In this document: piece after piece, positions 1,153-31,014 of the stretch
Layout: every line of letters starts with the position of its first letter
How positions within the stretch are numbered: the first letter of the stretch is position 1
Origin: an uncultured Lachnospiraceae bacterium
GTDB taxonomy: Bacteria; Bacillota; Clostridia; Lachnospirales; Lachnospiraceae
Reading direction: 5' to 3'
DNA length: 32,700 nt
Assembly: GCA_946620235.1 (NCBI GenBank)
Contig: CAMONC010000010.1
Span: 1 to 32,700, forward strand
Notes under the pieces: generated by a model
Told to the model about the DNA's origin: nothing
Seen by the model: the letters and a program-made list of their open reading frames with translations, nothing else
Databases searched by the model: none
Program-made: the position numbers and the translations under genes

Positions 1153-1156
1153 CTGC

Positions 1157-2389: not shown

Positions 2390-2404
2390 TAGGAGACAAG
2401 AGAA

Positions 2405-2767: not shown

Positions 2768-3126
2768 TGGGCTCTTCCTACGCCCAGTTTATAGTCGTAC
2801 TGCTTATATTTGTCGGGGTTTTGGCGGTAACTCTCTGGGTGACCAGATGGATGTCGGGATATCAGAGGGTTAAGGGCAGTGACTCCAATATCGGTCTGAT
2901 CGACAGTCAGACCATAGGTAATGGCAAATACATACAGATAGTACGTCTGGGTGACAGGTATTTTGCTTTAGCTGTATCCAAGGATAATGTCAGTCTGATC
3001 AGTGAACTGGACAAAGATTCTCTTATCATACGTGAGGGGAGTTCTCGGACTGCGTCATTCAAGGATATCCTGTCCGGCATCAGACCGGCTCCCGGTGGTG
3101 ATACCATTGAAAACGAGAACAAGTAA
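2767..3126 (+). CDS. fliO: Flagellar export gate assembly protein FliO/FliZ
   Basis: A 119-residue protein with one N-terminal membrane helix (about 6-28, FIVVLLIFVGVLAVTLWV) and a cytoplasmic domain carrying the FliO-typical pattern QTIGNGKYIQIVRLGDRYFALAVSKDNVSLISEL. FliO helps assemble the FliP pentamer of the type III export gate. FliO is poorly conserved, so the call combines the membrane-plus-beta-domain layout, the length and the position immediately before fliP. It begins in the TAATG overlap with the end of cheY, with GAAGG in the cheY 3' end as a possible ribosome binding site. Confidence 0.88.
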   Translation: MGSSYAQFIVVLLIFVGVLAVTLWVTRWMSGYQRVKGSDSNIGLIDSQTIGNGKYIQIVRLGDRYFALAVSKDNVSLISELDKDSLIIREGSSRTASFKDILSGIRPAPGGDTIENENK

Positions 3127-3148
3127 CAGAAGAAGCTGTCTTCATATA

Positions 3149-4000: not shown

Positions 4001-4013
4001 CAGGAGGATCAGC

Positions 4014-4283
4014 ATGGCCATAGAAGATGTTACACAGATCATAGGTGATGCACTCTTTACGATACTCAAGACTGCTATGCCGGTGTTGCTTGTGAGTCTT
4101 TGCGTGGGCTTGATCGTATCCATTTTTCAGACTGTTACATCCATTCAGGAACAGACGCTGACCTTCGTTCCCAAGGTTATAGCCATATTCCTGACGCTTA
4201 CTCTGATAGGCAACTGGATGCTGAATAATATATTGGCCTATATAGATAACTTATGGGGGAGTTTCGCAGTATATATCAGGTGA
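4014..4283 (+). CDS. fliQ: Flagellar type III export gate protein FliQ
   Basis: An 89-residue protein with two membrane helices, the standard FliQ size and layout. The pattern VGLIVSIFQTVTSIQEQTLTFVPKVIAIF is the FliQ signature. It packs around FliP and FliR in the helical gate assembly. A strong ribosome binding site, GGAGGATC, is 7 bases or so before the ATG. It lies 13 bases after fliP and its TGA is 4 bases before the preferred fliR ATG, so it belongs to the same translational unit. Confidence 0.97.
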   Translation: MAIEDVTQIIGDALFTILKTAMPVLLVSLCVGLIVSIFQTVTSIQEQTLTFVPKVIAIFLTLTLIGNWMLNNILAYIDNLWGSFAVYIR

Positions 4284-4287
4284 TGTG

Positions 4288-5070
4288 ATGTTAGATATCC
4301 ATTTCACATACAGCGATCTGCAACATTTTCTCCTCATCCTTATGCGGGTGGCTTCTTTTGTTTTTGTTGCCCCCTTTTTTAACGGCAACAACCAGACACC
4401 GAGGCGTGTCAAGGCGGGGTTCAGCGTTATGCTGGCGATACTGCTGTTTGGCATGGTGGAAAAGCCGGACCTGACGTTTGATACCGAGATCGAGTACGCG
4501 ATCATAGTGATGAAGGAGACCATATGCGGACTCCTGATAGGTCTGGGAGCGCAGTTGTGCACGGCAGTGGCTGTCCTGGCCGGCTACATTGTGGATATAG
4601 AGACAGGCATGAGCATGGCTCAGGTCTTTGATGTGAACACCAGACAGCAGGTATCCATCTCGAGCGGGATCTATAATTATTCGTTTCTGCTCATTATGGT
4701 CATTTCGGGAGTCTATAAGTACCTTTTGGGAGCTCTTGTGGATTCGTTTACTTTGATCCCGATCGGCGGGCAGGTGTTTCACACAGAGCAGCTTGTCGGC
4801 CAGATAATAGCTTTTATGGGGCAGTACATGTCCATAGGCTTCAGAGTTGCACTGCCGATCTTCTGCTGCATCCTGATACTGAATTCGGTGTTGGGTATAC
4901 TTGCGAAGGTTGCGCCTCAGATGAACATGTTTGCTGTCGGTATGCAGCTTAAAGTTTTGACAGGCTTGTCTCTGCTATATATTTCAACCTTTACGCTTCC
5001 GAAGATATCGGAGTTCATATTCACAGAGATGAGACGTTTGATAGTTGGTTTTGTAGAGGGTATGATGTGA
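4288..5070 (+). CDS. fliR: Flagellar type III export gate protein FliR
   Basis: About 260 residues with six hydrophobic segments. Family features include the N-terminal LMRVASFVFVAPFF, PRRVKAGFSVMLAILL and the central LIGLGAQLCTAVAVLAGYIVDIETGMSMAQVFDV. FliR completes the FliP-FliQ-FliR gate. The ORF track starts at GTG 4285. I use the adjacent ATG 4288 because AGGTGA (4278-4283, overlapping the fliQ stop) is then 4 bases away instead of 1; the difference is a single residue. Its stop overlaps the flhB GTG by 4 bases. Confidence 0.95.
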   Translation: MLDIHFTYSDLQHFLLILMRVASFVFVAPFFNGNNQTPRRVKAGFSVMLAILLFGMVEKPDLTFDTEIEYAIIVMKETICGLLIGLGAQLCTAVAVLAGYIVDIETGMSMAQVFDVNTRQQVSISSGIYNYSFLLIMVISGVYKYLLGALVDSFTLIPIGGQVFHTEQLVGQIIAFMGQYMSIGFRVALPIFCCILILNSVLGILAKVAPQMNMFAVGMQLKVLTGLSLLYISTFTLPKISEFIFTEMRRLIVGFVEGMM

Positions 5071-6179
5071 GCCTGAAGTACGATCTTCAGTTCTTCGCCA
5101 AGGACGGTCCGGGCGGAGAAAAAACGGAACCGGCTACCGCCAAGAAGTTAAGGGATGCCCGCAGAGAAGGACAGGTGGCCAAGAGCAGGGAAGTATCGAA
5201 TGCCGCGATGCTGCTTTCGCTGTTCGTGTTCTTAAGTCTGGTGGTCGGTTATTACGGATCCAGCTTCCTGAACATTTTCGATATGGTATATAACCGTATC
5301 CCGGAGTGGACCGTGATGCATGGCGGTGAGATGCCGCTTGCCACTATCTATGCCGCTTTACGGGATATAGTTTTTAAGTTCCTTTCCATAGTGCTGCCGG
5401 CACTGATCATCGGATTTGTGGTACCTTTCATTGCAAATCTGGTACAGGTCAAATGGTCACCGACCACTAAACCGATGCAACCCAAATTCAGCAAGCTGAA
5501 TCCGCTTAACGGTATCAAGAGGCTCTTTTCGCTGAATTCGCTGATGGAGCTTCTTAAGTCGATCCTCAAGATCGCCATCATCGGGTTTGTGGTTTATCTG
5601 TATATCAGAAAGGAACAGAATCGCTTTCTGATAATTTTGGAAATGCCGGTAATGGATGCGCTGAAACAGCTGTTGAGCGTGATCGTTACCATAGGAATAA
5701 GGATCTCCGCGGTGTATGTCGTTCTGGCTGCCGCTGACTACATTTACCAGAAATGGAAGTTCAGCGAGGACATGAAGATGACCAAGCAGGAAGTCAAGGA
5801 CGAGTACAAGAACATGGAGGGAGATCCGCAGATCAAATCGCAACAGAAAGCCAGGATGTTGCAGGCATCGAGACGCCGTATGATGTCGCGGCTTCCCGAA
5901 GCGGATGTGGTTATCACGAACCCTACGCATTACGCAGTGGCCATTAAGTACGATCCCGACCTGTATGATGCTCCTTTTGTGGTGGCAAAGGGCAGTGATT
6001 ATCTGGCTGCCAGGATTAAGGAAATCGCAGCGGAGAACCATATCGAGATAGTTGAGAACAAGCCTCTCGCACGTATGCTTTATGCAAATGTTGAGGTGGA
6101 TCAGATCGTACCGCCTGAGTTATATCAGGCAGTGGCCGAGGTTCTGGCCTTTGTATATCACTTACAGGGCAGAGTCTGA
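5067..6179 (+). CDS. flhB: Flagellar export switch protein FlhB
   Basis: FlhB is the membrane protein that switches export from rod/hook to filament substrates after cleaving itself. The 370-residue product shows the N-terminal EKTEPATAKKLRDARREGQVAKS motif, four membrane segments, and the cytoplasmic autocleavage site NPTH at residues 285-288, with cleavage expected between N285 and P286. The C-terminal part (AIKYDPDLYDAPFVVAKG, ENKPLARMLY) is intact. The start is GTG 5067 overlapping the fliR stop (GTGA), with GAGGG 6 bases upstream, which indicates translational coupling. The N terminus contains DLQFFA, common in clostridial FlhB. Confidence 0.97.
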   Translation: MSLKYDLQFFAKDGPGGEKTEPATAKKLRDARREGQVAKSREVSNAAMLLSLFVFLSLVVGYYGSSFLNIFDMVYNRIPEWTVMHGGEMPLATIYAALRDIVFKFLSIVLPALIIGFVVPFIANLVQVKWSPTTKPMQPKFSKLNPLNGIKRLFSLNSLMELLKSILKIAIIGFVVYLYIRKEQNRFLIILEMPVMDALKQLLSVIVTIGIRISAVYVVLAAADYIYQKWKFSEDMKMTKQEVKDEYKNMEGDPQIKSQQKARMLQASRRRMMSRLPEADVVITNPTHYAVAIKYDPDLYDAPFVVAKGSDYLAARIKEIAAENHIEIVENKPLARMLYANVEVDQIVPPELYQAVAEVLAFVYHLQGRV

Positions 6180-6236
6180 GACATATTACGGCTTTGCTGT
6201 TCAGGTGTTTTTTAAAACTACAGAAAGGAGGAGCAC

Positions 6237-8279
6237 ATGGGTAAGTTTAAGCTTGCTGACGCCGGTGTCGCTACGTATCTGCTTATAGCGTTCGTCATGA
6301 TGATCGTTCCGATGCCTGAATGGCTGCTGGATATTTTCCTGACAGCCGATATGGGTATCAGCTTTACCATCCTCTTTACTTCCATGTTTGCCGAGGAAGT
6401 ACTGGGCATGAGTTTCTATCCCACCATGCTGCTCTTCTCAACCATATTCCGTATCGCTCTGAACGTATCATCGACGAGACTGATCCTCGCACAGGGCAGT
6501 GCCGGTAACGTTATCCAGGTGTTCGGTGAGTTCGTGGGCGGCGGTGATCTGGTCATAGGTATCATCGTGTATCTGATCCTGGTCGTCGTCCAGTTCGTTG
6601 TTATCAATAAAGGTTCAGAGAGAGTTGCCGAGGTAACGGCCAGATTCACTCTGGATGCTATGCCCGGTAAGCAGATGGCTATCGATGCCGACCTGAATAC
6701 CGGAGCCATCACGGATGAAGAAGCCAAAATCAGACGAGATAAGATACAGGAAGAAGCCACCTTTTTCGGCTCCATGGATGGTGCTGTCAAGTTCGTAAAG
6801 GGAGATGCAAACGCCGGCCTGATCATAACCGCGATCAATATCGTGGGCGGTATAGCAATGGGTGTCCTCAGGATGGGCATGGATATTGCCACTGCGCTCA
6901 ACTGGTATACGATACTGACCATAGGCGACGGTCTGGTAAGTATGATCTCTTCACTCCTGATATCACTGGCGACAGGTATCCTGGTAACCAAGGGGTCCAA
7001 AACGGCGGATTTCGGTTCGACCCTGCTGTCGCAGTTGTTCGGTATACCGAAAGCATTATATATAGTAGGCGGAGTGCTCGCTTTCCTGGGAATAGTCACT
7101 CCTTTGAACACTGTACTTTTTGTGGTAGCGGGAGCGATATTCATCATCGTGGCCAGAGTCATAGCCGGCACGATAGAGACTGCGAAGATCGAGTCCGAGG
7201 TTGAGAGCGAGGAAGCTGCCGCAGAGGAGATCAGGCAGCCCGAGAATGTCACTTCGTTGCTTAATGTGGATCCTATAGAGCTGGAGTTCGGATATGGTAT
7301 CATCCCTCTGGCCGATGTTAACCAGGGCGGCGACCTGCTTGACCGAGTTGTCATGATCAGACGACAGATCGCTCTGGAACTCGGTACCGTGGTGCCTATC
7401 ATCCGTTTGCGCGATAACATACAGCTCAATCCGAACCAATATATCATCAAGATCAAGGGCGTACAGGTATCGGAGGGAGAGATCCTTTTTGATCACTATA
7501 TGGCGATGAATCCCGGATTCATCACCGAGAAGATCCCGGGTATTGATACCACTGAGCCTTCTTTCGGACTCCCGGCCACATGGATCACCGAGGGACAGAG
7601 AGAAAAGGCTGAGAGTATGGGGTATACGGTAGTCGATCCTCCGTCCATAATCGCAACTCATCTGACCGAGGTCATCAGACAGCATATCGCGGAGCTGCTG
7701 ACACGTCAGGATGTACAGAACCTGATCGATAACCTCAAGGAGACCAATCCTTCGATCGTCGATGAACTTGTTCCCAAACTGCTCGGTCTCGGAGAAATCC
7801 AGAAGGTTCTGCAGAATCTTCTGTCGGAAGGCATATCCATACGTGATCTGCTGACCATATTTGAGACCATGGCGGATTATGCGACTACGACCAGAGATAC
7901 GGATATACTTACCGAATACATCCGTCAGGCTCTGAAGAGAGCCATATCCAATAAATTTTTCCCTGCCAACGAGACTACGCAGGTAGTGACTGTGGATCCT
8001 GCGCTTGAACAGGATATCATGGCAAGTGTGAAGCAGACTGAACAGGGTGCCTATCTGACGATGGATCCGCAGAAGATCGAAGCTATCATGGCGAGTGTGA
8101 AAGAAGAGATTGATAAACTGGAGAATCTCGGCAAAAATCCTATAATCATTACTTCGCCTATCGTCAGAATATATTTTAAGAAGCTTACTGAAGAATACTT
8201 TAAGGACCTGATAGTAGTGTCCTATAATGAGTTAGAGTCTAATATCAGTATTCAATCTATAGGAACGGTAAAAGCTTAA
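6237..8279 (+). CDS. flhA: Flagellar export gate protein FlhA
   Basis: The 680-residue protein has the family layout: about eight N-terminal membrane helices (to about residue 315) and a large C-terminal cytoplasmic domain that forms the nonameric ring docking chaperone-substrate complexes. The FHIPEP signature region is clear (STRLILAQGSAGNVIQVFGEFV and KIQEEATFFGSMDGAVKFVKGD). A strong ribosome binding site, AAAGGAGGAG at 6224-6233, precedes the ATG. The 57-base gap after flhB is one of the larger gaps in the operon but holds no convincing promoter. Confidence 0.98.
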   Translation: MGKFKLADAGVATYLLIAFVMMIVPMPEWLLDIFLTADMGISFTILFTSMFAEEVLGMSFYPTMLLFSTIFRIALNVSSTRLILAQGSAGNVIQVFGEFVGGGDLVIGIIVYLILVVVQFVVINKGSERVAEVTARFTLDAMPGKQMAIDADLNTGAITDEEAKIRRDKIQEEATFFGSMDGAVKFVKGDANAGLIITAINIVGGIAMGVLRMGMDIATALNWYTILTIGDGLVSMISSLLISLATGILVTKGSKTADFGSTLLSQLFGIPKALYIVGGVLAFLGIVTPLNTVLFVVAGAIFIIVARVIAGTIETAKIESEVESEEAAAEEIRQPENVTSLLNVDPIELEFGYGIIPLADVNQGGDLLDRVVMIRRQIALELGTVVPIIRLRDNIQLNPNQYIIKIKGVQVSEGEILFDHYMAMNPGFITEKIPGIDTTEPSFGLPATWITEGQREKAESMGYTVVDPPSIIATHLTEVIRQHIAELLTRQDVQNLIDNLKETNPSIVDELVPKLLGLGEIQKVLQNLLSEGISIRDLLTIFETMADYATTTRDTDILTEYIRQALKRAISNKFFPANETTQVVTVDPALEQDIMASVKQTEQGAYLTMDPQKIEAIMASVKEEIDKLENLGKNPIIITSPIVRIYFKKLTEEYFKDLIVVSYNELESNISIQSIGTVKA

Positions 8280-8280
8280 G

Positions 8281-9546
8281 ATGATCATTAAGAAGTTTAC
8301 AGCCAAAACCGAAGCGGAGGCTACGGCCGAAGCCAGAAAAGAGCTTGGTCCCAATGTTGTGATCATGAACGTGAGGAGCGTTAAGCAAAAGGGATTATTC
8401 TATTTCCTGAAGCCGCCTCTGATGGAAGTGACTGTGGCTCTGGAGGAGGAAGGAGAACCGGGGGCGGTTCGCCGTCGGGTAGTGACACCCGAACCTCCGT
8501 CATCGTCCGATCCGGTCAGAGAGGCGGTCAGTCAGGTGAGCTCACTGGTCAATGCCGATCTGGAGAAAGAAAAAGAGAAAAAGCAGGAAGAGGAATATCA
8601 CGAGTCTGTAATAGAAGAAAAGCTGGATTCGCTGCAGAGCCTGCTTGAAAAGCAGATTTCGACTCCGCCGGTCACAGCTGAACCGGAGCAGTCAAAACCG
8701 GCTCCCCAGCCCGCCACCGAGGATGAATCCGAGGTTACGGACGTGGATGCGGAACTCCTGAAGTTCATGAAACTTCTCTATAACACGATGATAGATAATG
8801 AGGTCAACGAGAAGGTTGCGAATGCGATCATAGAGGAGACCCGTAAGTCTGCCAAGCCCGGCATGCCGTTTGATTACGCACTGGCTGCTACCTACCAGAA
8901 GATGGTCCTGAAGTTCGGTACACCTCAGGCCATATCTCCTGCATCACGCGGTCCCAAGGTTGTGTTCTTCATAGGTCCTACGGGTGTGGGCAAGACCACT
9001 ACCATTGCGAAGATAGCTTCACAGTTTTCCGTCGATCAGGGTAAGAAGGTTGCCCTGCTTACAGCCGATACATACAGGATAGCCGCAGCGGAGCAGCTCC
9101 GTACATATGCGAATATCCTGGAAGTTCCGTTCCGCATCATATATGCGGTTGAGGAAGTGGAGCAGGCACTTGAGGATTTTGCTGCATATGATTATATCCT
9201 GGTGGATACGGCCGGACATTCGCATCAGAATGAGTCTCAGCGCGATCAGATGAACGGTTTTATACATTCCGTGGACGGGCTGGCCGAAAAGGAGACTTTC
9301 CTCGTTCTTTCCGCCACGACCAAGTACAGAGATCTGATCAGTATAGCCGATACATATACGGCGATGACGGATTATAAGCTTATTTTCACCAAACTGGATG
9401 AGACTACGACTCTAGGCAACCTGTTGAATCTGAAACTTCATACGGGTACGACGATATCGTATGTTACCAACGGACAGAACGTGCCGGATGATATTGCTCC
9501 TTTTAATCCGCAGAAGACAGTCAAGCTTCTGCTGGGAGGCAAATAG
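8281..9546 (+). CDS. flhF: Flagellar biosynthesis SRP-type GTPase FlhF
   Basis: FlhF is an SRP-family GTPase that controls where and when flagella are built. The 421-residue protein starts with the typical basic domain (MIIKKFTAKTEAEATAEARK), followed by a charged, low-complexity linker (about 65-150), an N domain, and a G domain with P-loop GPTGVGKTT (232-240), DTAG (309-312) and TKLD (370-373). All nucleotide-binding motifs are intact. It starts 1 base after flhA and has no strong Shine-Dalgarno of its own, so it probably depends on coupling to flhA. Its partner FlhG follows. Confidence 0.97.
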   Translation: MIIKKFTAKTEAEATAEARKELGPNVVIMNVRSVKQKGLFYFLKPPLMEVTVALEEEGEPGAVRRRVVTPEPPSSSDPVREAVSQVSSLVNADLEKEKEKKQEEEYHESVIEEKLDSLQSLLEKQISTPPVTAEPEQSKPAPQPATEDESEVTDVDAELLKFMKLLYNTMIDNEVNEKVANAIIEETRKSAKPGMPFDYALAATYQKMVLKFGTPQAISPASRGPKVVFFIGPTGVGKTTTIAKIASQFSVDQGKKVALLTADTYRIAAAEQLRTYANILEVPFRIIYAVEEVEQALEDFAAYDYILVDTAGHSHQNESQRDQMNGFIHSVDGLAEKETFLVLSATTKYRDLISIADTYTAMTDYKLIFTKLDETTTLGNLLNLKLHTGTTISYVTNGQNVPDDIAPFNPQKTVKLLLGGK

Positions 9547-9567
9547 GCCGCAGGTTCGCAGCGGGTT

Positions 9568-9583
9568 GTGACAGATGTGTCAC
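9568..9583. repeat. Perfect inverted repeat in the flhF-flhG gap
   Basis: GTGACA-GATG-TGTCAC is a 6-bp perfect inverted repeat with a 4-base loop in the 61 bases between flhF and flhG; three further outer pairs (CGG/CCG) are possible across a small internal loop. There is no T tract, so it is not an intrinsic terminator. It could be an RNA processing or stability hairpin, or a protein-binding palindrome. It contains the rejected ATG 9575. Confidence 0.55.
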
Positions 9584-9607
9584 GCCGAAATAAGCAAAGG
9601 GTATAAG

Positions 9608-10495
9608 ATGGATCAGGCTACAGGTTTAAGAAATCTCGTAAAATCGAATAATACTCCGACCAGACCGATATCCAGGGTCATAACGGTGACCAGCGGTAAG
9701 GGTGGAGTCGGTAAATCCAATACTTCCATCAATCTGGCGATCCAGTTCCGCAAACTGGGCCAGAGGGTCATCATATTGGATGCCGATTTCGGCCTGGCGA
9801 ACATCGAGATCATGTTCGGAGCGGTACCCAAGCATAATCTGTGCGATCTGATATATCAGAACAAAAGCATCAGGGAGATCATCACCTGGGGACCGATGGA
9901 GGTCGGTTTTATTTCGGGCGGAAGCGGTATAGCAGGTATGTCGAACCTCAGCCGCGATTATCTGACCTACATCATTCAGAACCTGGCAGAGCTTGATGCC
10001 ATTGCGGACATTATTATAGTAGATACGGGTGCGGGCATCTCCGATGCCGTGCTGGAATTCCTGGTAGCGAGCGGTGAGATATTGCTGGTCACCACTCCGG
10101 AGCCCACATCCATTACGGATTCATATTCATTGCTTAAGGCACTTAACAGACATGACCGTTTTGATCGTGATTACTCACAGATCAAAGTGGTAGCGAACAA
10201 GGTCGATTCGGATTCCGAAGGACAGGCTCTGTTTAATAAACTCAACGCCGTTGTCAACAGATACCTGCATCTGCCGATCTCCTATCTCGGAGCGGTACCG
10301 CAGGATCAGCAGCTGGTCAAGGCGGTCATGCAGCAGATGCCTGTGTCGATACAGCATCCGACTGCCAAGTCATCTCTGGCATATGAGAACATAGCGGCCA
10401 AACTTATGAACATAGATCCCGACAAGCTTCACAAACGCGGGATGGCTGCATTCTTTTCACACATAGTAACTACAGCGAAAAAAGCACAAAATTGA
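9608..10495 (+). CDS. flhG: Flagellar number regulator FlhG (MinD-like ATPase)
   Basis: A MinD/ParA-type ATPase that activates the FlhF GTPase and limits flagellar number; it may also interact with FliM/FliY in C-ring assembly. The product has the FlhG N-terminal DQATGLRNLV activation helix, a deviant Walker A (KGGVGKS, residues 31-37), DADFGLANIEIMFG, and IIIVDTGAGIS. The ORF track starts at ATG 9575, but ATG 9608 is better: AAAGGG lies 6 bases upstream and the family typically begins with M-D-Q-A. That gives 295 residues, the usual length. The C-terminal residues are basic and may form the membrane-targeting sequence. Confidence 0.96.
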   Translation: MDQATGLRNLVKSNNTPTRPISRVITVTSGKGGVGKSNTSINLAIQFRKLGQRVIILDADFGLANIEIMFGAVPKHNLCDLIYQNKSIREIITWGPMEVGFISGGSGIAGMSNLSRDYLTYIIQNLAELDAIADIIIVDTGAGISDAVLEFLVASGEILLVTTPEPTSITDSYSLLKALNRHDRFDRDYSQIKVVANKVDSDSEGQALFNKLNAVVNRYLHLPISYLGAVPQDQQLVKAVMQQMPVSIQHPTAKSSLAYENIAAKLMNIDPDKLHKRGMAAFFSHIVTTAKKAQN

Positions 10496-10517
10496 TCGAT
10501 AAGACCAGGAGGGGTAT

Positions 10518-11249
10518 ATGCTTTCAAAATATGTAGTCGTAGGTAACCGCGTCGAGTTGCAGGCGGTCAAGCGGCTTAATCTGAACCAGAATCGCGAAAA
10601 CGATGAGAGAAAGGTCTATACGACCAAAGTGTATGATATCGTTTCAGATGAGCGCATTGAGCTTCTGATGCCCATGGAGCAGACAAAGCTCATACTTCTG
10701 CCCGTGGACGGCGAATATGAGCTGTGCTTCTATACCGATAACGGATTGTATCAGTGTGTGGCCAAGGTTGTTGACCGTTACAGGGACAACAATATATATG
10801 TACTGGCACTTGACCTGACTACCAACCTGCGCAAGTACCAGCGCCGGGAATTCTACAGATTCAGCTGTGCGCTGGAAATGAATTCCCGTGAGCTTCTGAA
10901 AGAGGAGATCGAATCTCTGAACAATTCGCATAACGCTCTTCAGCCCGAGCTTCCGCTCAAACGAAGCGTTATCGTGGATATCAGCGGCGGCGGTCTCCGG
11001 TTTGTGTCCAATCTGGAGTACGAGAAGGGCAGCATGATCCTGTGTAACTATAATCTGGTGGTAGATGACGTCCAGAAGCATTACAGTCTGGTCGGAAGGG
11101 TTCTCTCGGTGGAGGAACTCGAGAACAGACCGGGAGTGTATGAGCACCGCGTTCAATATGTAAATATGGATGTTGATGAACGAGAAGAGATAATCAAGTA
11201 CATTTTCAACGAAGAACGTAAGAGCCGGCATAAAGAAAAGGGGATGTAA
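10518..11249 (+). CDS. YcgR-like PilZ domain protein (c-di-GMP effector)
   Basis: A 243-residue protein with an N-terminal YcgR-like domain and a C-terminal PilZ domain. The two c-di-GMP-binding motifs are present: RxxxR (RREFYR, residues 109-114) and D-x-S-x-x-G (DISGGG, about 158-163). Proteins of this layout bind c-di-GMP and slow the motor through the C-ring or stator. The gene sits between flhG and cheB with a strong AGGAGGGG ribosome binding site, so it is made with the motor. The only diguanylate cyclase-like gene in the window is at 27.1-28.7 kb. The exact motor target cannot be read from sequence. Confidence 0.92.
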   Translation: MLSKYVVVGNRVELQAVKRLNLNQNRENDERKVYTTKVYDIVSDERIELLMPMEQTKLILLPVDGEYELCFYTDNGLYQCVAKVVDRYRDNNIYVLALDLTTNLRKYQRREFYRFSCALEMNSRELLKEEIESLNNSHNALQPELPLKRSVIVDISGGGLRFVSNLEYEKGSMILCNYNLVVDDVQKHYSLVGRVLSVEELENRPGVYEHRVQYVNMDVDEREEIIKYIFNEERKSRHKEKGM

Positions 11250-11250
11250 C

Positions 11251-12321
11251 ATGAAAAAAATACTTCTAGTTGATGACTCTGCACTCATGAGAAGGGTGCT
11301 TGGTGATATAATTGACTCGGATTCCAGATTTCATGTAGAAGATCGGGCCAATAACGGCGTAGAGGCACTTGAGAAACTGCAGAAGAATACATACGATGCA
11401 GTGGTACTCGATGTCAACATGCCGCAGATGGATGGGATCACCCTGTTAAAGGAGCTTCACAAGAAGAAGATCAATGTCAGAGTCATGATGGCATCTACCG
11501 ATACCATGGAAGGTGCAAAAGTCACTCTGGATGCTCTTGATCTCGGAGCCCTGGATTTCATACATAAACCGAGTAACGCATTTGACTGTAAGGAAGCTGA
11601 CTTCCAGAAGCGCATGCTCAGGACTCTTGAAAGTGTATGTATGTCCAAGGTGCCTTCTTTCGAACCGGCGCTCACGATTGACTCCATCAAGACGTCGAGG
11701 AAGGTTGTAGAACTTGTCAGCAAGCATGCAACGACAGCAACGACATCCAAGATCGTAGCGATAGCTTCTTCTACGGGCGGGCCGAAAGCATTGCAGTCGG
11801 TTATACCGAACCTGCCGGGAAACCTGGCAGCACCGGTTGTGCTCGTACAGCATATGCCGGTCGGGTTTACCGCATCTCTGGCAGACCGGTTGAATTCACT
11901 CAGTGAAGTGACCGTGACCGAAGCCAAAGAGGGTGATGTGCTGGAACCGGGACATGTCTATATCTCACAGGGGGGTAAGCACATGAATGTCCTGACGATG
12001 GCCAGCAAGTATTCGATCCATTACACCGACGAACCTACCAGAGAAGGAGTCAAACCCTGTGCCAACTATATGTTTGAATCCCTGGCATCATCCAAAGCCA
12101 GCGAGATCGTATGTGTAGTAATGACAGGCATGGGAGCAGACGGTACAGAAGGTATTGTCCATCTGAAAGAGAAGAAGAAAGTACATGTCATAACCCAGAC
12201 TGAAGGAACCTGTGCTGTTTACGGTATGCCGAAAGCAGCCGTGAAGCAGGGACTTTCGGATCAGCAGGTTCCTCTCGATCAGATAGCACAGGAAATCGTT
12301 ATGAACGTAGGCGTTCGATAA
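11251..12321 (+). CDS. cheB: Chemotaxis response regulator methylesterase CheB
   Basis: CheB removes methyl groups from (or deamidates) chemoreceptors when phosphorylated by CheA. The 356-residue protein has an N-terminal receiver domain with phospho-acceptor D54 (VVLDVNMPQMDG), a linker, and a C-terminal methylesterase domain whose triad is complete: S174 in IASSTGGP, H201 in QHMP and D297 in MTGMGADGTEG. The start is one base after the pilZ stop, with AAGGGG upstream. CheR, the opposing methyltransferase, is not in this window. Confidence 0.97.
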   Translation: MKKILLVDDSALMRRVLGDIIDSDSRFHVEDRANNGVEALEKLQKNTYDAVVLDVNMPQMDGITLLKELHKKKINVRVMMASTDTMEGAKVTLDALDLGALDFIHKPSNAFDCKEADFQKRMLRTLESVCMSKVPSFEPALTIDSIKTSRKVVELVSKHATTATTSKIVAIASSTGGPKALQSVIPNLPGNLAAPVVLVQHMPVGFTASLADRLNSLSEVTVTEAKEGDVLEPGHVYISQGGKHMNVLTMASKYSIHYTDEPTREGVKPCANYMFESLASSKASEIVCVVMTGMGADGTEGIVHLKEKKKVHVITQTEGTCAVYGMPKAAVKQGLSDQQVPLDQIAQEIVMNVGVR

Positions 12322-12345
12322 AAAAGAAAGGAATGGTGGAACCAA

Positions 12346-14463
12346 ATGGATGTAAGTCAATATTTGGACATTTTTCTGGATGAGGCCGGCGAACACCTCC
12401 AGAGTTTGAGCGATCAGATCATGATCCTCGAGCAGGAGCCGGAGAATGAGGACACTATCAACGAGATATTCCGTGCCGCACATTCACTCAAGGGTATGGC
12501 AGGTACCATGGGCTATAAGAACATGCAGAACCTGACACACGACATGGAGAATGTGTTCTCCGAAGTGAGAAACGGTAATATCAAGATCAAATCTGATATG
12601 ATAGATGTTCTTTTCCAGTGTCTTGATGCACTGGAAGCTTATACGAACAATATCCGTGAGAGCTCCGACGAGGGATCCGAGACAAATGAGAACCTCATCA
12701 AAGCTCTGAACGATATACTTAACGGCGGTTCCGGCGGATCATCCGATGAACCCAAGAAGGAAGAAGCCAAGGAAGCAAAGGCTCCCGAGGCTCCAGCCGC
12801 ATCGGGAGATGAGGGCTGGAAACATATTAAGCTCGGTGACACGGAGACATCCGTTCTCGGCGAAGCACTGAAGCAGGGCAAAACACCTTACGGCCTGACC
12901 GTTAAGATTCAGGAGTCATGCATCCTGAAGGCTGCCCGGGCTTTCCTTGTATTCAAAGCCGTTGAAGAACTCGGTGAGGTTATAATATCCGAACCTTCCA
13001 CTCAGGACATAGAGGATGAGAAGTTTGATTTCGAGTTCTCACTCATAACCATTTCCGATAAGCCTTTGGACCAGATCATCAGTGCTGCTTCCGCAGTATC
13101 CGAGATCGAGTCCGTTACCGGCGGTGTGCTTGACCTTGACAGCACCGAGATCGAGTCTGACGAGGAAGAGGAGGAAGCCGCTCCTGCTGAAGCAGCAGCT
13201 GAAAAGCACGAAGAGAATAGTGAAGCTCCCGCCCAGAGCAATGCACCTGTACCCGCAGGCGCAGCACCTGCCAAGAATGATAAGAAGCCTGTCGGAAAGC
13301 CCGTTGTTAACAGGACTGTCCGCGTAGATATCGAGAAACTCGATGTATTGATGAATCTGGTCAGCGAGCTGATCATAGCCAAGAACTCATTGGTTGCGGC
13401 AAGCGGGAGCACCGAAGACCGCATCAACTCCGCTATTACAGATCAGGTAGAATACCTCGAGTCAGTTACCACCAGCCTTCACGAATCGGTTATGAAGGTT
13501 CGAATGGTGCCTATCGAGAGCGTTGTTTCCAAGTTCCCTCGTATGATCAGAGATCTGTCCAAGAAGCTCGGCAAGAAGATGGAACTGTATATGTCCGGTG
13601 AAGACACAGAGCTGGATCGTACCGTTGTGGATGAGATCGGTGATCCTCTGATGCATCTGCTCCGTAACTCGGCTGACCACGGTCTTGAATCCGCTGAGAT
13701 ACGTAAGGAGAGAGGCAAGCCCGAGGTTGGATCGATATTCCTGGATGCGTATCAGGAAGGCAATAACGTTATCATCGAGGTTAGAGATGACGGTAACGGT
13801 ATCGACACCGAGGCAGTTAAGGCCAAGGCTATAGAGAGAGGCGTTATCACACCCGAGCAGGGTGACAACATGACAGAGAAGGAGGTCATAGATCTGCTGT
13901 TCCATGCAGGTTTCTCCACTGCCAAGGTTGTATCCGATGTATCCGGACGAGGCGTAGGTCTGGACGTTGTTAAGTCCAAGATCGAATCTCTGAGCGGTGA
14001 AGTTGAAGTTAAGAGCAGACTGGGTGAGGGCTCTACATGGACCATCAGACTTCCTCTGACTCTGGCTATCATTCAGGCTCTCATGGTTACGGTCGGTGGC
14101 GAGAAGTATGCTATATCACTTGGTTCCATCCAGACCATAGAGAATATCTCCAGAAGCAGTATCAAGCTTGTTGAGAATAAAGAGGTTATCCACTTAAGAG
14201 GCACTGTTATCCCTCTGATCGATCTGCATGATGTACTTGATGCACCTCGTCTTGAAGAAGAGGATCCCGAGCACATTATCGTAGTTATCGTTAAGAAGGG
14301 TGATAAGCTTGCAGGTCTTGTGGTCGATCAGCTTATCGGCCAGCAGGAAGTGGTTATCAAGTCACTCGGCAAGTATATCAACAGATGTAAGGTTATAAGT
14401 GGCGCTACGATCCTTGGTGATGGCGAAGTTGCTCTGATCCTGGATGCGAACGTGCTGATCTGA
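12346..14463 (+). CDS. cheA: Chemotaxis histidine kinase CheA
   Basis: The 705-residue kinase has all five domains: P1 with phosphorylated H46 in AAHSLKGMAGTMG; P2 (about 158-262) for CheY/CheB docking; an acidic/alanine-rich linker (270-320); P3 dimerisation (about 322-390); a P4 ATPase with N box (LLRNSADHG, about 439-446), G1 DDGNG (481-485) and G2 GRGVG (534-538); and P5 (about 575-705), which binds CheW and receptors. No domain is truncated. It autophosphorylates in response to receptors and passes phosphate to CheY and CheB encoded nearby. It starts 24 bases after cheB with an AAAGGAATGG ribosome binding site. Confidence 0.98.
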   Translation: MDVSQYLDIFLDEAGEHLQSLSDQIMILEQEPENEDTINEIFRAAHSLKGMAGTMGYKNMQNLTHDMENVFSEVRNGNIKIKSDMIDVLFQCLDALEAYTNNIRESSDEGSETNENLIKALNDILNGGSGGSSDEPKKEEAKEAKAPEAPAASGDEGWKHIKLGDTETSVLGEALKQGKTPYGLTVKIQESCILKAARAFLVFKAVEELGEVIISEPSTQDIEDEKFDFEFSLITISDKPLDQIISAASAVSEIESVTGGVLDLDSTEIESDEEEEEAAPAEAAAEKHEENSEAPAQSNAPVPAGAAPAKNDKKPVGKPVVNRTVRVDIEKLDVLMNLVSELIIAKNSLVAASGSTEDRINSAITDQVEYLESVTTSLHESVMKVRMVPIESVVSKFPRMIRDLSKKLGKKMELYMSGEDTELDRTVVDEIGDPLMHLLRNSADHGLESAEIRKERGKPEVGSIFLDAYQEGNNVIIEVRDDGNGIDTEAVKAKAIERGVITPEQGDNMTEKEVIDLLFHAGFSTAKVVSDVSGRGVGLDVVKSKIESLSGEVEVKSRLGEGSTWTIRLPLTLAIIQALMVTVGGEKYAISLGSIQTIENISRSSIKLVENKEVIHLRGTVIPLIDLHDVLDAPRLEEEDPEHIIVVIVKKGDKLAGLVVDQLIGQQEVVIKSLGKYINRCKVISGATILGDGEVALILDANVLI

Positions 14464-14482
14464 TAGATAGGAGGATACAATA

Positions 14483-14929
14483 ATGGATGAACTGTCAACC
14501 GTAAGAACCAGTATCCAGTACATCGTAGTTAAACTGGGTGAGGAACGATTTGGCATTAACATCAGTTATGTGGATAATATCGTTCGTATGCAGAGGATGA
14601 CCAGAGTTCCCGAGGTCGCTCCGTACATCAAGGGCGTTATCAATCTGCGAGGCGAAGTAGTGCCTGTAATGAGTACACGTATCAAGATGGGCCTTGAGCC
14701 CGATGTTGAGACCAATGCCACTAGGATCATCATCCTTAAGTTCGAGCAGCAGGGCTTCATAGGTTTCATAGTAGACGCAGTTAACGAAGTTGTTACTCTC
14801 GATACCGAATCCATAGAGAAGGTTGCCGATCAGAAACAGGATGGAGCTTTCGTTCAGGGCGTAGGCAAAACCAACGACGGACTGATTTCCATTCTTGATC
14901 TTAATGCATTGATAAACGAGCATGTTTAA
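14483..14929 (+). CDS. cheW: Chemotaxis adaptor CheW
   Basis: A single CheW domain of 148 residues, the normal length, with the conserved EERFGINISYVDNIVRM and VKGVINLRGEVVPV-like segment (YIKGVINLRGEVVPVMST). It links CheA to receptors. The ribosome binding site TAGGAGGATA lies just upstream of the ATG and the gene follows cheA by 19 bases. Confidence 0.97.
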   Translation: MDELSTVRTSIQYIVVKLGEERFGINISYVDNIVRMQRMTRVPEVAPYIKGVINLRGEVVPVMSTRIKMGLEPDVETNATRIIILKFEQQGFIGFIVDAVNEVVTLDTESIEKVADQKQDGAFVQGVGKTNDGLISILDLNALINEHV

Positions 14930-14942
14930 AGGAGAATACTAA

Positions 14943-15575
14943 ATGGCTGAGACCATGTCTTTGAATGACGTCAATTCAATGTATTTTGACGTTTTAAAAG
15001 AAATAGGCAATATCGGAGCCGGTAATGCTACAACGGCTCTGGCACAGATGCTTGGGACCAAAGTCGACATGTCGGTTCCCCAGGTATCCCTTCTGGACTT
15101 CAAGGATGTCGGCGAGATCGTGGGCGGTGAAGAGCTTATCATGGTCGGCATTCTGCTGGGTGTAGAGGGCGATATCACCGGTAGCATCATGTTCATGATA
15201 GAGAAGGAAGGCGCCCGTCATCTGACCAATAAGCTTATGATGGGTATGGGCGCATCAGAACCCGGCGAAGACTTTAACGAGATGGAGCTTTCCGCTCTTC
15301 GTGAGGTTGGTAATATCATCACCGGAGCTTATCTGAATGCACTTTCCGGTCTGACAAATCTGTGCATATATCCTTCAACCCCTGATCTGACTGTTGATAT
15401 GGCAGGAGCTATCCTCAGTGTTCCCGCCATTCAGTTTGGTATTCAGGGCGATCAGATTTTGCTTATTAAGAATAATTTCTTTGATGAAGTAGAATTAGAC
15501 GGATTTTTCATTTTGCTTCCTGATGTCGAATCATACGGAACTATCCTGAAAGCACTTGGAATATCCTCTATATAA
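14943..15575 (+). CDS. cheC: CheY-P phosphatase CheC
   Basis: CheC dephosphorylates CheY-P and forms a complex with CheD. The 210-residue protein has two active-site helices that both match (D/S)-x3-E-x2-N-x22-P: DVLKEIGN and SALREVGN, each followed by P 22 residues after the Asn. This is the full two-site CheC type, distinct from CheX. The window thus has four intact CheC-type half-sites: two here and two in fliY. AAAGGAG precedes the ATG. Confidence 0.96.
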   Translation: MAETMSLNDVNSMYFDVLKEIGNIGAGNATTALAQMLGTKVDMSVPQVSLLDFKDVGEIVGGEELIMVGILLGVEGDITGSIMFMIEKEGARHLTNKLMMGMGASEPGEDFNEMELSALREVGNIITGAYLNALSGLTNLCIYPSTPDLTVDMAGAILSVPAIQFGIQGDQILLIKNNFFDEVELDGFFILLPDVESYGTILKALGISSI

Positions 15576-15593
15576 TTACCTGGAGTTGATGTA

Positions 15594-16085
15594 ATGGCTG
15601 ATATAGTTAAAGTAGGTATGGCTGACCTCAACCTGTGTCAGGCTCCCGATGGGATTACAACGTTGGGACTTGGTTCATGTGTTGGGGTGGCCTTGAGAGA
15701 ACCGGGGAAACCCTGGGGTGGATTGGCACATGTTATGCTTCCCGATTCTACTGCGATCAGTTCGAACGGACCGGTTAATATTCCGAAATTTGCCGATACC
15801 GGTGTAGACGAACTCGTCAAGCGCATGGTTGCCAAGGGATGCAACAAGGCAAAACTGGTCGCTAAGATCGCCGGTGGTGCACAGATGTTCGCACACGCCA
15901 CCAACGACAAGATGATGCGTGTGGGTGACCGCAACGTCGAGGCGGTTAAGAAGAAACTTGCCGAGCATCGTATACCGATACTTGCCGAGGATACGGGACT
16001 GAATTACGGTCGTACCGTTATCTTCTATCCGGAGAGCGGTGATTTCGTGATCCGTTCGGTAGGTAAACCCGACAAGACCATCTGA
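15594..16085 (+). CDS. cheD: Chemoreceptor glutamine deamidase CheD
   Basis: CheD deamidates glutamines on chemoreceptors and activates CheC by binding it. The 163-residue product carries the expected catalytic set by alignment with characterised CheD: C29 in GLGSCVGV, H46 in LAHVMLP and T23. Length and the GGAQMF segment are typical. It follows cheC by 18 bases, as in many Gram-positives, which supports a CheC-CheD adaptation module here. Confidence 0.96.
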   Translation: MADIVKVGMADLNLCQAPDGITTLGLGSCVGVALREPGKPWGGLAHVMLPDSTAISSNGPVNIPKFADTGVDELVKRMVAKGCNKAKLVAKIAGGAQMFAHATNDKMMRVGDRNVEAVKKKLAEHRIPILAEDTGLNYGRTVIFYPESGDFVIRSVGKPDKTI

Positions 16086-16102
16086 TGGCCTGAGGTAATC
16101 GT

Positions 16103-16621
16103 ATGCCTGACGATTTGAGAGATGACGGATATCCCGATGGCAGTGGCGGCAGAAGTGAGGAGAGGGATCGTGTAGGTGAGAATGCACAAGCCGACCGTGA
16201 TAACGCTCATCCGCACATGGAGGTCGATGTATCCAGGCCTCTGACCGCTAAAGAACGAGAAGCAGAGAAGCTTCGCCGGATGGCGGAGCTGGAAGAAGAA
16301 AAACGAAGACAGAAAGAAGAGGATGATCGAAAGAAGGAGCTGAATCGCCGGCGTAAAAAGCGCAGGCTGATAACTCCCGGTATCGTCCTTACAGTGGGAG
16401 CGATAGCAAGCATTACGATGTTTCTGATGAAGTTCGAAAACAAACGTATGCTTATATGGCTCCTGGTGATATTGCTGGTATCATGGATGATAGGAAGCCT
16501 CATTCAGTATATGTTTGAGCGCTTTGCGGCAGAAAACGAAAAAGACATATCCGATGAAGGAGAAGTGATCAACAGAGGACTTGCTCCTTCGGAGGAGGTA
16601 AAGGCCGAAGAGGATGGATGA
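16103..16621 (+). CDS. Uncharacterised two-helix membrane protein with charged N-terminal coiled coil
   Basis: Not recognised as a named family. The 172-residue protein has an acidic/polar N terminus (1-45), a dense Lys/Arg/Glu stretch likely to form a coiled coil (about 48-90, EREAEKLRRMAELEEEKRRQ), then two membrane segments (about 91-112 and 116-140) with a very short loop, and an acidic tail. Both termini would be cytoplasmic. TGAGGTAA precedes the ATG. It lies between cheD and fliA and overlaps the fliA start by 8 bases, which suggests coupled expression with the sigma factor. An anti-sigma or motor-accessory role is speculation; FlgM is smaller and soluble. Confidence 0.85.
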   Translation: MPDDLRDDGYPDGSGGRSEERDRVGENAQADRDNAHPHMEVDVSRPLTAKEREAEKLRRMAELEEEKRRQKEEDDRKKELNRRRKKRRLITPGIVLTVGAIASITMFLMKFENKRMLIWLLVILLVSWMIGSLIQYMFERFAAENEKDISDEGEVINRGLAPSEEVKAEEDG

Positions 16622-17384
16622 AAACGGTCGCAAGAGGCTGTGGGACGATTATAAGCGGACCGGAGCTTCCGAAATCAGGGAAAAACTCATACTGGAGTAC
16701 GCTCCTCTCGTGAAACTTGTAGCAGGTCGTCTGTCCATGTATCTCGGGTACAACGTGGAATATGATGATCTGTGCAGTTATGGCATTTTCGGTCTTATAG
16801 ATGCCATAGATAAGTTTGATATGCTGAAGGACGTCAAGTTTGAGACCTATGCATCGCTGCGTATCAGAGGTTCGATCCTGGATCAGATACGTAAGATGGA
16901 TTGGATTCCCCGTACTGTCCGTCAACGTCAGAGACAGATCGATACGGCCATACACGAGATCGAGCTTGCAACGGGCAAGACGGCCACGGATGAACAGATA
17001 GCAGAGAAACTGGGACTGACCGATGACGAATATACCGACTGGCAGTCGCAGATGAAGGTCACCGGAGTTATTTCACTGGATGAGTTTACCGAGTCCGGCA
17101 GTGATATATCCAGTGACAGATACGGCAACAGCCACTTCGACGGACCCGAGGAGGCTATCGAGAAAGACGAACTTAAACAGATGCTTGCGGAGGCCCTTCA
17201 AACGCTTACAGAGAAGGAACAGCAGGTCATACTCCTATACTACTATGAAGATCTGACGCAAAAGGAGATCAGTGACATCATGAATGTGTCCGAATCCAGA
17301 GCATCGCAGCTACATAGCAAAGCATTGCAGAAGCTTCAGAAGAAGCTTGGTAGGTATATGAACATACTTACGGACAATATATAA
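16614..17384 (+). CDS. fliA: Flagellar sigma factor FliA/SigD (sigma-28)
   Basis: A 256-residue group 3 sigma factor. Region 2 is clear (YAPLVKLVAGRLSMYLGYNVEYDDLCSYGIFGLIDAIDKFD), followed by the RIRGSILDQIRKMDWIPRTVRQ segment diagnostic of FliA/WhiG sigma factors, region 3, and region 4 with the helix-turn-helix (LTQKEISDIMNVSESRASQLHSKAL). It directs RNA polymerase to late flagellar and chemotaxis promoters. The start overlaps the preceding gene by 8 bases. Its anti-sigma factor FlgM is not recognisable in the window. Late in the operon is the usual place in Firmicutes. Confidence 0.97.
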   Translation: MDENGRKRLWDDYKRTGASEIREKLILEYAPLVKLVAGRLSMYLGYNVEYDDLCSYGIFGLIDAIDKFDMLKDVKFETYASLRIRGSILDQIRKMDWIPRTVRQRQRQIDTAIHEIELATGKTATDEQIAEKLGLTDDEYTDWQSQMKVTGVISLDEFTESGSDISSDRYGNSHFDGPEEAIEKDELKQMLAEALQTLTEKEQQVILLYYYEDLTQKEISDIMNVSESRASQLHSKALQKLQKKLGRYMNILTDNI

Positions 17385-28890: not shown

Positions 28891-31014
28891 ATGAAAAAGA
28901 CTGCGATCATGATCACAATAGCCATACTTGCCCTGGTTTCCGTGTTGATCGCCACTGTTGCGGCAGCAAAGCGGGCAGATACGCCAGACGGTTTTCCGGA
29001 AACAAATGAAAGGACGGAGGCAGAATTTTACGGAGCTGCGGCACCGGACGTTGATGCGGGAGCAGCCGGAGCCGGGACATCGGATGCAGACGGATCAGCC
29101 GGAGCCGGGGTACAGGACGTTGATGCGGGGGCAGCCGGGCAGGAATCGCCGGACGCAGACGACCCAGCCGGCCCGCAGACGGAAGTTCCCGCCCCCGAGA
29201 TACTGACTTTTGTCGACGTCTTCGGAGAGGAATATCAGACACAGATCATTCCCGGGGTTACGAGATCCCCGTACGCAGCAGAGTCTTTTGTCCGTTACGG
29301 AGACAGGGTCCGGTATGAGGATGATGTGTATCATTCCAGACGTGGAATAGATGTATCCCATCATCAGGGCCATATAGACTGGGACAGGGTTAAGGCTGCG
29401 GGATATGATTTTGCATTTATCCGGTTGGGTTATCGTGGGTACGGACAGGCCGGAAGCCTGAATCTTGATAAGTCATTTGACACGAATATCCGGAATGCCC
29501 ATGAAGCCGGATTGGATGTGGGCGTATACATTTTTTCTCAGGCGATAAATGAAGATGAGGCGGCCGAAGAAGCAGAGTTTGTCATAAAACACCTGGAGGG
29601 ATACAGCCTTGAGCTACCGGTTGTATACGATCCCGAGAGCATATTGGATGCTGAGGCCAGAACCGATGATGTGAGCGGAGAGCAGTTTACTGAGAATACC
29701 ATGCTTTTCTGTAAAATGATCGCCGATGCCGGATATGAGCCGATGATCTACAGCAATATGCTCTGGGAGGCGTTTCAGTTTGACATGACCGTGGTGAGCG
29801 AATACCCGGTCTGGTATGCAGATTATGAACCGTTACCGCAGACACCGTATGATTTTAGCTTCTGGCAGTATTCCAACACAGGTCATGTGGACGGGGTGAG
29901 CGGCGAGGTTGACTTAAACATCCAGATTTATAGGAAAGGGACAGATCCGGCATCGAAAGGTAAGGAGGACGGGATGAGCGGCACTCAGATTGATGAAAAA
30001 ATAGCATCTATGAGCATAGAGGAGAAGATTTGGCAGCTTTTTGTGGTGACTCCCGAGGTGTTGACAGGCGAATCACCGGTCACGGCGGCCGGCGAAGTAA
30101 CCGAAGCGAGCCTGAAGAAAGCCCCTGTCGGCGGACTGATATATTTTGCAGACAATTTTGTCTCGCCCGGGCAGACTAAAGAGATGATATCCAAAACTCA
30201 GGAGTATGCCCGGGATATCGAAGGACTGCCGCTTCTCATGTGTGTGGATGAAGAGGGAGGGAGCACTGCCAGGATCGCACGCAATTCATCATTCGGAGTT
30301 GAAAAAGTCGGTCCGATGGGGAACGTCGCAAGTGCCGAAGAAGCTTACGGCTGTGGAGATACCATCGGTGCCTATCTTAAAGACCTTGGCCTGAATGTGG
30401 ATTTTGCACCGGTGGCGGATGTCCTGACCAACAGCCGCAACAACGTGATAGGTGACCGCTCATTCGGCTCGGATCCGATGATTGTAACGGAGTATTCAAA
30501 GGCCTATTCCGACGGCTTGCATGACCATGGAATCTTAAGCTGCTATAAGCATTTCCCGGGGCACGGCGCCACAGAGGCTGACACTCATGAGGGATATGCT
30601 TATACGGACAAAACATATGAAGAGTTAAAGCAGAGCGAGCTGGTCCCGTTTGCACATGCCGGGGCGGACGGAGCAGATATGATAATGGTGGCACATATCT
30701 CTCTGCCGAACGTTATAGGGGACGACACGCCCTGTTCTCTTTCGAAGAAGATGATGACCGATATTCTGAGGAACGAACTGAAATACGACGGGATCATCAT
30801 CACCGATGCGATCAACATGGGTGCTATTGCCGACAATTACAGTAACGGTGAGGCTTCCGCAAAAGCTTTTGCGGCCGGAGCGGATATGATACTGATGCCG
30901 ACGAACCTGCAGGAAGCATACGACGGGATCTATGCCGCCTATGAAAAAGGCGATATCACCGAGGAACGCATAGATGAGTCGCTTAGGCGGATCATAGCCG
31001 CCAGGATCCGGTAA
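28891..31014 (+). CDS. GH25 muramidase - GH3 beta-N-acetylhexosaminidase fusion, secreted or anchored
   Basis: A 707-residue two-enzyme protein. Residues 1-26 form a signal peptide or anchor; 45-95 are an Ala/Gly/Asp-rich linker with a 23-residue tandem repeat; about 150-350 are a GH25 lysozyme domain (RGIDVSHHQGHIDW with D154; LPVVYDPES with D247 and E249); about 363-707 are a GH3 domain of the NagZ type, with KHFPGHG (553-559), the D-x-H general acid/base pair D564/H566, and nucleophile D639 in IITDAINMGAI. All catalytic residues are intact. GH25 cuts MurNAc-GlcNAc bonds and NagZ-type GH3 removes GlcNAc, so one protein could shorten and then trim glycan strands outside the cell. No ribosome binding site is visible. 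The gene is divergent from the GGDEF gene. Confidence 0.93.
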   Translation: MKKTAIMITIAILALVSVLIATVAAAKRADTPDGFPETNERTEAEFYGAAAPDVDAGAAGAGTSDADGSAGAGVQDVDAGAAGQESPDADDPAGPQTEVPAPEILTFVDVFGEEYQTQIIPGVTRSPYAAESFVRYGDRVRYEDDVYHSRRGIDVSHHQGHIDWDRVKAAGYDFAFIRLGYRGYGQAGSLNLDKSFDTNIRNAHEAGLDVGVYIFSQAINEDEAAEEAEFVIKHLEGYSLELPVVYDPESILDAEARTDDVSGEQFTENTMLFCKMIADAGYEPMIYSNMLWEAFQFDMTVVSEYPVWYADYEPLPQTPYDFSFWQYSNTGHVDGVSGEVDLNIQIYRKGTDPASKGKEDGMSGTQIDEKIASMSIEEKIWQLFVVTPEVLTGESPVTAAGEVTEASLKKAPVGGLIYFADNFVSPGQTKEMISKTQEYARDIEGLPLLMCVDEEGGSTARIARNSSFGVEKVGPMGNVASAEEAYGCGDTIGAYLKDLGLNVDFAPVADVLTNSRNNVIGDRSFGSDPMIVTEYSKAYSDGLHDHGILSCYKHFPGHGATEADTHEGYAYTDKTYEELKQSELVPFAHAGADGADMIMVAHISLPNVIGDDTPCSLSKKMMTDILRNELKYDGIIITDAINMGAIADNYSNGEASAKAFAAGADMILMPTNLQEAYDGIYAAYEKGDITEERIDESLRRIIAARIR
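29044..29181 (+). repeat. 69-bp imperfect tandem repeat in the GH25-GH3 linker
   Basis: Two units with a 69-bp (23-codon) period, sharing GGACGTTGATGCGGG at 29046 and 29115, encode PDVDAGAAGAGTSDADGSAGAG and QDVDAGAAGQESPDADDPAG. Within a unit there is a weaker half-repeat (DAGAAG, DADGSAG). The repeat keeps the frame and sits between the membrane anchor and the GH25 domain, where it would act as a spacer across the cell wall. Confidence 0.75.

Follow-up and report, generated by a model that had tools for sequence, protein, structure and literature searches.

Gene and Domain Architecture

The window analysed here is the whole stretch of 32,700 nucleotides from an uncultured Lachnospiraceae bacterium of the gut or rumen. 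Judged from their translations, the genes at positions 172-17384 belong to flagella and chemotaxis, among them fliM, fliP, fliR, flhB, flhA, flhF, cheB, cheA, cheC, cheD and a gene for a FliA-kind sigma factor. More than 11 kb from these genes, beyond rpsB-tsf and other genes and flanked by a GGDEF-type gene and a methyltransferase gene, lies a single open reading frame of 707 amino acids with an ATG start and a TAA stop (Table 1). The Pfam profile for glycoside hydrolase family 25 (GH25; PF01183) matches residues 153-336 over its full length (positions 1-180 of 180; 107.4 bits, E-value 1.4e-30, cut-off 27), and the profile for the GH3 N-terminal domain (PF00933) matches residues 376-702 (267.5 bits, E-value 2.5e-79, cut-off 27). 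The Pfam scan of the 707 residues found no domain besides these two. The reading frame and both matches thus bear out the original prediction, made from the sequence alone, that a muramidase and a GH3 enzyme are joined in one protein. A low-complexity linker (residues 30-100) and a beta-rich lead-in (residues 102-150), neither of which was part of that prediction, precede the GH25 domain. The fusion is a real single gene and not an assembly join, because orthologues with 88% and 82% identity occur in two other genomes.

Table 1. Features of the fusion gene (positions in the window; residues of the 707 amino acid product)
Feature	Residues	Position	Strand	Evidence
Whole gene: N-terminal anchor, linker, GH25, short linker, GH3		28891..31014	+	ORF; Pfam; full-length orthologues with 88% and 82% identity
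One hydrophobic helix following MKK; either a signal peptide or an anchor that stays uncleaved	1-29	28891..28977	+	Sequence; AF2 helix 2-29; hydropathy; homologues L016, L033 and L125 with clear TM anchors
Low-complexity Ala/Gly/Asp/Pro/Glu linker, probably disordered, fast evolving	30-101	28978..29193	+	pLDDT <50 over 30-97; dN/dS 0.26-0.52
Conserved beta-rich lead-in, EILTFVDVFGEEYQTQI...	102-150	29194..29340	+	Low-confidence AF2 strands; common to standalone GH25 relatives; present in L016, L033, L028 and L254-L257
GH25 muramidase domain; D154, D247, E249, D341	151-345	29341..29925	+	PF01183, E-value 1.4e-30; alignment to 1jfx, 2wag, 2ww5
Short interdomain linker	346-368	29926..29994	+	Low pLDDT 337-362; dN/dS 0.12-0.79
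GH3 NagZ-type beta-N-acetylglucosaminidase barrel; KHFPGHG 553-559, D564/H566 dyad, nucleophile D639	369-707	29995..31011	+	PF00933, E-value 2.5e-79; 3bmx/4gyj alignment; Foldseek; pLDDT ~97

Catalytic Residues and Structural Matches

Both domains carry a complete catalytic set. The residues originally named (D154, D247 and E249 in GH25; D564, H566 and D639 in GH3) are all present, and a fourth GH25 acid missing from that list, D341, completes the pattern of a D-x-E pair with a first and a last Asp. These four residues align with acids of the Streptomyces muramidase 1jfx that are the catalytic ones in the GH25 family. In the GH3 domain, the motif KH(F/I)PGHG...D-x-H and the nucleophile Asp are satisfied by KHFPGHGATEADTH and ITDAINM. 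D564 and H566 align with the Asp-His dyad of Bacillus subtilis NagZ (3bmx and 4gyj) and D639 with its nucleophile D318; 4gyj is a mutant with Asn at this last position. The best Foldseek matches are NagZ-type enzymes, namely a Paenibacillus GH3 enzyme (6k5j; 7.1e-32), LpqI (6gfv; 2.3e-26) and B. subtilis NagZ. The NCBIfam model of the NagZ equivalog (NF003740, PRK05337) gives 185.1 bits, below its cut-off of 207; we therefore call the domain NagZ-type, that is, related to NagZ but not that equivalog. From these residues, the GH25 domain should cleave MurNAc-beta-1,4-GlcNAc bonds, and the GH3 domain should release GlcNAc from GlcNAc-MurNAc(-peptide).

The AF2 model has a helix at residues 2-29, disorder at 30-97, a low-confidence lead-in, a GH25 domain in which the confidence varies, and a GH3 barrel with a pLDDT of about 97. 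With a pTM of 0.57, the mutual placement of the two barrels, and hence the orientation of their active sites, cannot be read from the model.

Orthologues and Selection within the Genus

The fusion is present in four of the seven genomes of the window's genus (the window's own, G301, G302 and G303), and the other three have no copy. The orthologues are 82% (G301), 88% (G302) and, over the matched parts, 93% (G303) identical to the window protein. G303 has the same gene neighbourhood as the window, and G301 and G302 share another one. A part in remodelling the wall for flagella, one of the roles first proposed, is not upheld, as the flagellar genes are far away in the window and the different setting in G301 and G302 leaves no conserved genomic link to them.

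We compared dN/dS between species of the genus by the Nei-Gojobori method. The ratio is 0.03-0.11 for GH25, 0.07-0.11 for GH3 and 0.07-0.24 for the lead-in, and is higher in the N-terminal and interdomain linkers (Table 1). Purifying selection acts on both domains and is relaxed in the linkers; both domains are maintained, and therefore neither is likely to be baggage. The exception is the G303 orthologue (L246:6809-8686, the same as L011), the GH3 domain of which has two in-frame deletions, one of 57 residues (171 nucleotides) and one of 45 residues (135 nucleotides) as read from alignment offsets, located at the short direct repeats SFG and YDGI. The second deletion takes out the nucleophile, and GH25 is intact. 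Since G303 is a metagenome assembly, the deletions may be an error: either GH3 is dispensable in this organism or the assembly is wrong. Apart from G303, the catalytic residues of both domains are complete in every fused copy examined, covering all four types of fusion described below.

Repeated Origin of the Fusion

How widely do the two domains occur together? We scanned GTDB contigs together with approximately 1000 distinct genomes, a sample drawn from the family, the class and the phylum. Most genera were represented by one or a few genomes, matches were taken under strict E-values only and long frames were chosen selectively, so rarer fusions elsewhere may be missed. Within this sample, fusions were seen only in Lachnospiraceae, and none of 18 long-frame regions retrieved at the level of family, class or phylum has both domains. 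Four types can be distinguished. Type A (GH25-GH3) is that of the window's genus. Type B, a GH3-GH25 lipoprotein of Butyrivibrio sp. MB2005 (L028), has the reverse order. Types C (GH3-GH25 with a TM anchor) and D (a GH25-GH3 lipoprotein) each occur in four of the nine genomes of the Lachnospiraceae genus g86, so that eight of the nine have a fusion, four in each domain order.

Did these fusions arise once? In the GH3 tree, type A falls together with L125, a single-domain GH3 from its own genus (support 100/99). Type C lies near L091 and L092, type D near L100, and type B amid other single-domain proteins. The label fused or single changes five times on this tree, and at least three changes are forced by well-supported branches. 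A clade uniting A and D is rejected (p-value 4e-5) and one uniting C and D is marginally rejected (p-value 0.035). The GH25 tree by itself rejects neither A+D (p-value 0.18) nor C+D (p-value 0.07); in this tree, the type C GH25 is of a different subfamily, outside the well-supported clade of types A, B and D. Gene order and the GH3 tree rule out a single origin of all fusions. From the trees and the two domain orders, we count at least three and probably four independent fusion events; the exact number is soft because the types were defined once the architectures were known and because the bootstraps of one tree are unsettled. A phage origin was also considered and rejected: no phage record spans 80% of the query, and there is one weak viral contig.

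The search for proteins holding both domains, proposed with the original prediction, thus shows an architecture that recurs within Lachnospiraceae, but it turned up no characterisation of it. Among the open-access papers searched we found none on a GH25-GH3 or GH3-GH25 protein and only papers on the separate enzymes; CAZy or UniProt may well list the pair as uncharacterised. Each domain is familiar, and their repeated joining appears to be undescribed. This convergent fusion is what the analysis adds to a mechanism that was reasonable as first proposed and over-stated. Repeated fusion of the same enzymes, independent of their order, is good evidence for one shared pathway.

Anchoring and Standalone Relatives

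Using a simple hydropathy and lipobox scan, we found an N-terminal TM or signal segment or a lipobox in 97 of 101 GH3 relatives; most of the GH25 relatives listed also have one. In this lineage, NagZ-type enzymes are normally tethered. The premise that NagZ enzymes usually lie in the cytoplasm or have a single domain does not hold here, and B. subtilis NagZ (PMC5061867) and LpqI (PMC6572805) likewise work outside the membrane. The window protein has a possible AAA|K cleavage site and lacks a lipobox Cys, and its sequence fits either an uncleaved anchor or a cleaved signal peptide. The description of an anchored polypeptide that pairs a muramidase with an exo-GlcNAcase is supported to the extent that the protein is probably tethered.

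Standalone membrane-anchored GH3 and GH25 proteins of Lachnospiraceae (e.g., L013, L125, L016 and L033) have domains approximately 50-68% identical to those of the fusion. They have the same kinds of anchor and belong to the same subfamilies, but each has one catalytic domain. Among 299 Lachnospiraceae genomes, separate genes of the two subfamilies co-occur in 13, against 10.2 expected (p-value 0.19), and in the neighbourhoods read they are adjacent only in L025 and G076, a weak signal. As the separate genes co-occur no more than by chance, the functional link comes from the repeated fusions and from the logic of the substrates.

Six of the seven genomes of the genus also encode a TM-anchored NagZ-like GH3 pseudoenzyme (L003:826-2499 in the window's own genome, G000:C45; orthologues L122, L124, L128, L129 and L134). 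In these proteins, KHFPGHG...DTH is changed to a TDFPGTG...TAD-like sequence and the nucleophile Asp to Ala or Gly, so that every catalytic residue is replaced. The conservation of a dead GH3 domain suggests a binding or regulatory role. Another gene of the window's own genome, L009:895-2610 (G000:C58), encodes a GH25-like membrane protein with its barrel split by a long Thr-rich insert. Read by eye, this barrel is without the D-x-E pair, and the protein is probably a second wall-hydrolase pseudoenzyme.

Proposed Function

A muramidase cut exposes GlcNAc at the new non-reducing end, which is the substrate of NagZ-type enzymes. Given this relation, we consider it likely that the fusion protein is a membrane-tethered, two-step peptidoglycan processing enzyme that acts on the cell's own envelope. 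Anchored by its N-terminal helix, the enzyme would sit outside the membrane at the end of a long, flexible linker. GH25 would hydrolyse MurNAc-beta-1,4-GlcNAc bonds, leaving GlcNAc at each new non-reducing end, and GH3, with the nucleophile D639 and the Asp-His dyad, would then take off the exposed GlcNAc. The products would be free GlcNAc and MurNAc(-peptide), most probably from short muropeptides. The fusion would place the second enzyme next to the source of its substrate. NagZ cannot remove the terminal MurNAc that is left after one GlcNAc comes off. What was first called a complete glycan-strand shortening device is therefore better described as a putative two-step muropeptide splitter: the sequential pairing of muramidase and exo-GlcNAcase stands, but the GH3 domain would stall at the exposed MurNAc instead of running along strands.

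Parts of this scheme have parallels in known systems. The NagZ and AmiE of B. subtilis break down muropeptides outside the cell, one acting after the other (PMC5061867). B. subtilis NagZ (YbbD) is, like the fusion's GH3, a NagZ-type enzyme with an Asp-His dyad, and it acts extracellularly on turnover muropeptides. In contrast to the fusion, NagZ and AmiE are separate polypeptides, the partner is an amidase and not a muramidase, and NagZ has an extra C-terminal domain that the fusion protein is without. LpqI, a mycobacterial surface lipoprotein that frees GlcNAc from soluble fragments (PMC6572805), is likewise a NagZ consisting of a single barrel and tethered on the outside of the membrane, and most known recycling genes are missing from its organism; it differs in being a lipoprotein with one catalytic domain. 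Staphylococcus aureus Atl (amidase and glucosaminidase; PMC6262408) and CwlT (muramidase and NlpC/P60) likewise have two wall-cutting domains per polypeptide, but their enzyme pairs differ, and neither joins an endo-muramidase to an exo-GlcNAcase whose substrate it makes.

Other functions have to be weighed against a tethered two-step enzyme. The muramidase might do the work of an autolysin or remodelling enzyme, with the GH3 barrel mainly binding peptidoglycan or regulating. The G303 orthologue, with its GH3 nucleophile deleted and GH25 intact, would fit such a protein, and the TM-anchored pseudoenzyme indicates that a dead GH3 is tolerated and conserved in the genus. We nevertheless consider this unlikely: all GH3 catalytic residues are kept in all other fused copies examined, across the four fusion types, and the dN/dS of the domain is 0.07-0.11. 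The GH3 domain could also use phosphate or cut another beta-GlcNAc glycoside. Work cited in PMC6572805 describes GH3 enzymes with an Asp-His dyad as phosphorylases, and Foldseek also matches, at a greater structural distance, the beta-glucoside phosphorylase BglX. Closest in structure, however, are hydrolases of the NagZ type, among them the B. subtilis NagZ structure with GlcNAc-MurNAc (4gyj); LpqI tested negative for phosphorolysis (PMC6572805), and phosphorolysis outside the cell would presumably save nothing. Such chemistry is thus very improbable.

A secreted weapon, or a scavenger of nutrients from neighbours' or dietary peptidoglycan, could use the possible signal-peptidase site. Several rumen genomes are among the closest relatives, and GH25 and NagZ-type genes occur in a proposed antibacterial set of Trichomonas (PMC12612818). 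But wall-binding and export modules are absent from the protein, no immunity or toxin-delivery genes were seen nearby, and the TM or lipid anchors of homologues would place the enzyme beneath the cell's own wall. It is quite unlikely, then, that the protein serves this purpose, and predation on neighbours, another of the roles first suggested, gives way to the own wall, to which tethering seems to point.

For the tethered two-step enzyme, turnover of the cell's own wall is the likeliest role. Of the wall recycling in the original prediction, the turnover is favoured, but the classical recycling of the sugars looks incomplete in these genomes. None of the seven genomes of the genus has MurQ (MurNAc-6-P etherase) over the TIGR00274 cut-off, the best scores (approximately 31-41 bits) covering a short SIS-like stretch, and NagA, over its cut-off in five of the seven, is below it in the fusion-bearing G301 and G302. 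It is tempting to speculate, although we hold it to be rather doubtful, that GH25 and a NagZ-type exo-GlcNAcase on one tethered chain form a repeatedly evolved, undescribed route in Lachnospiraceae from strands to free GlcNAc and MurNAc-peptides at the surface, in which the MurNAc-peptide, without MurQ, would be exported or act as a signal instead of being recycled. To our knowledge, wall recycling in Gram-positive bacteria is poorly mapped outside Bacillus and Staphylococcus. The fusion offers a single purifiable protein for studying the processing of own-wall fragments in gut and rumen Firmicutes. Which fragments arrive at host sensors, and whether they still carry GlcNAc, may depend on how gut commensals trim muropeptides.

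Other Domain Combinations

Seven of the 18 long-frame regions were scanned with Pfam. Four have GH3 together with SLH, dockerin, SIS/MurQ-like, GHL10 or similar domains; others have GH3, to which the GH3 C-terminal domain may or may not be added, and one has GH25 after a CobD-like stretch. The last (L222:1360-3180 in G138), with a CobD/CbiB cobalamin-synthesis domain and then GH25 in one frame, is an unusual combination and perhaps a frame or assembly error. In L217:1685-4222 (G852), a MurQ-like SIS domain is joined to a NagZ-type GH3, two consecutive steps of wall recycling. NagZ-type GH3 domains are combined with SLH (L207), dockerin/FIVAR (L208), SLH (L209) and GHL10 (L219), suggesting varied modes of surface display.
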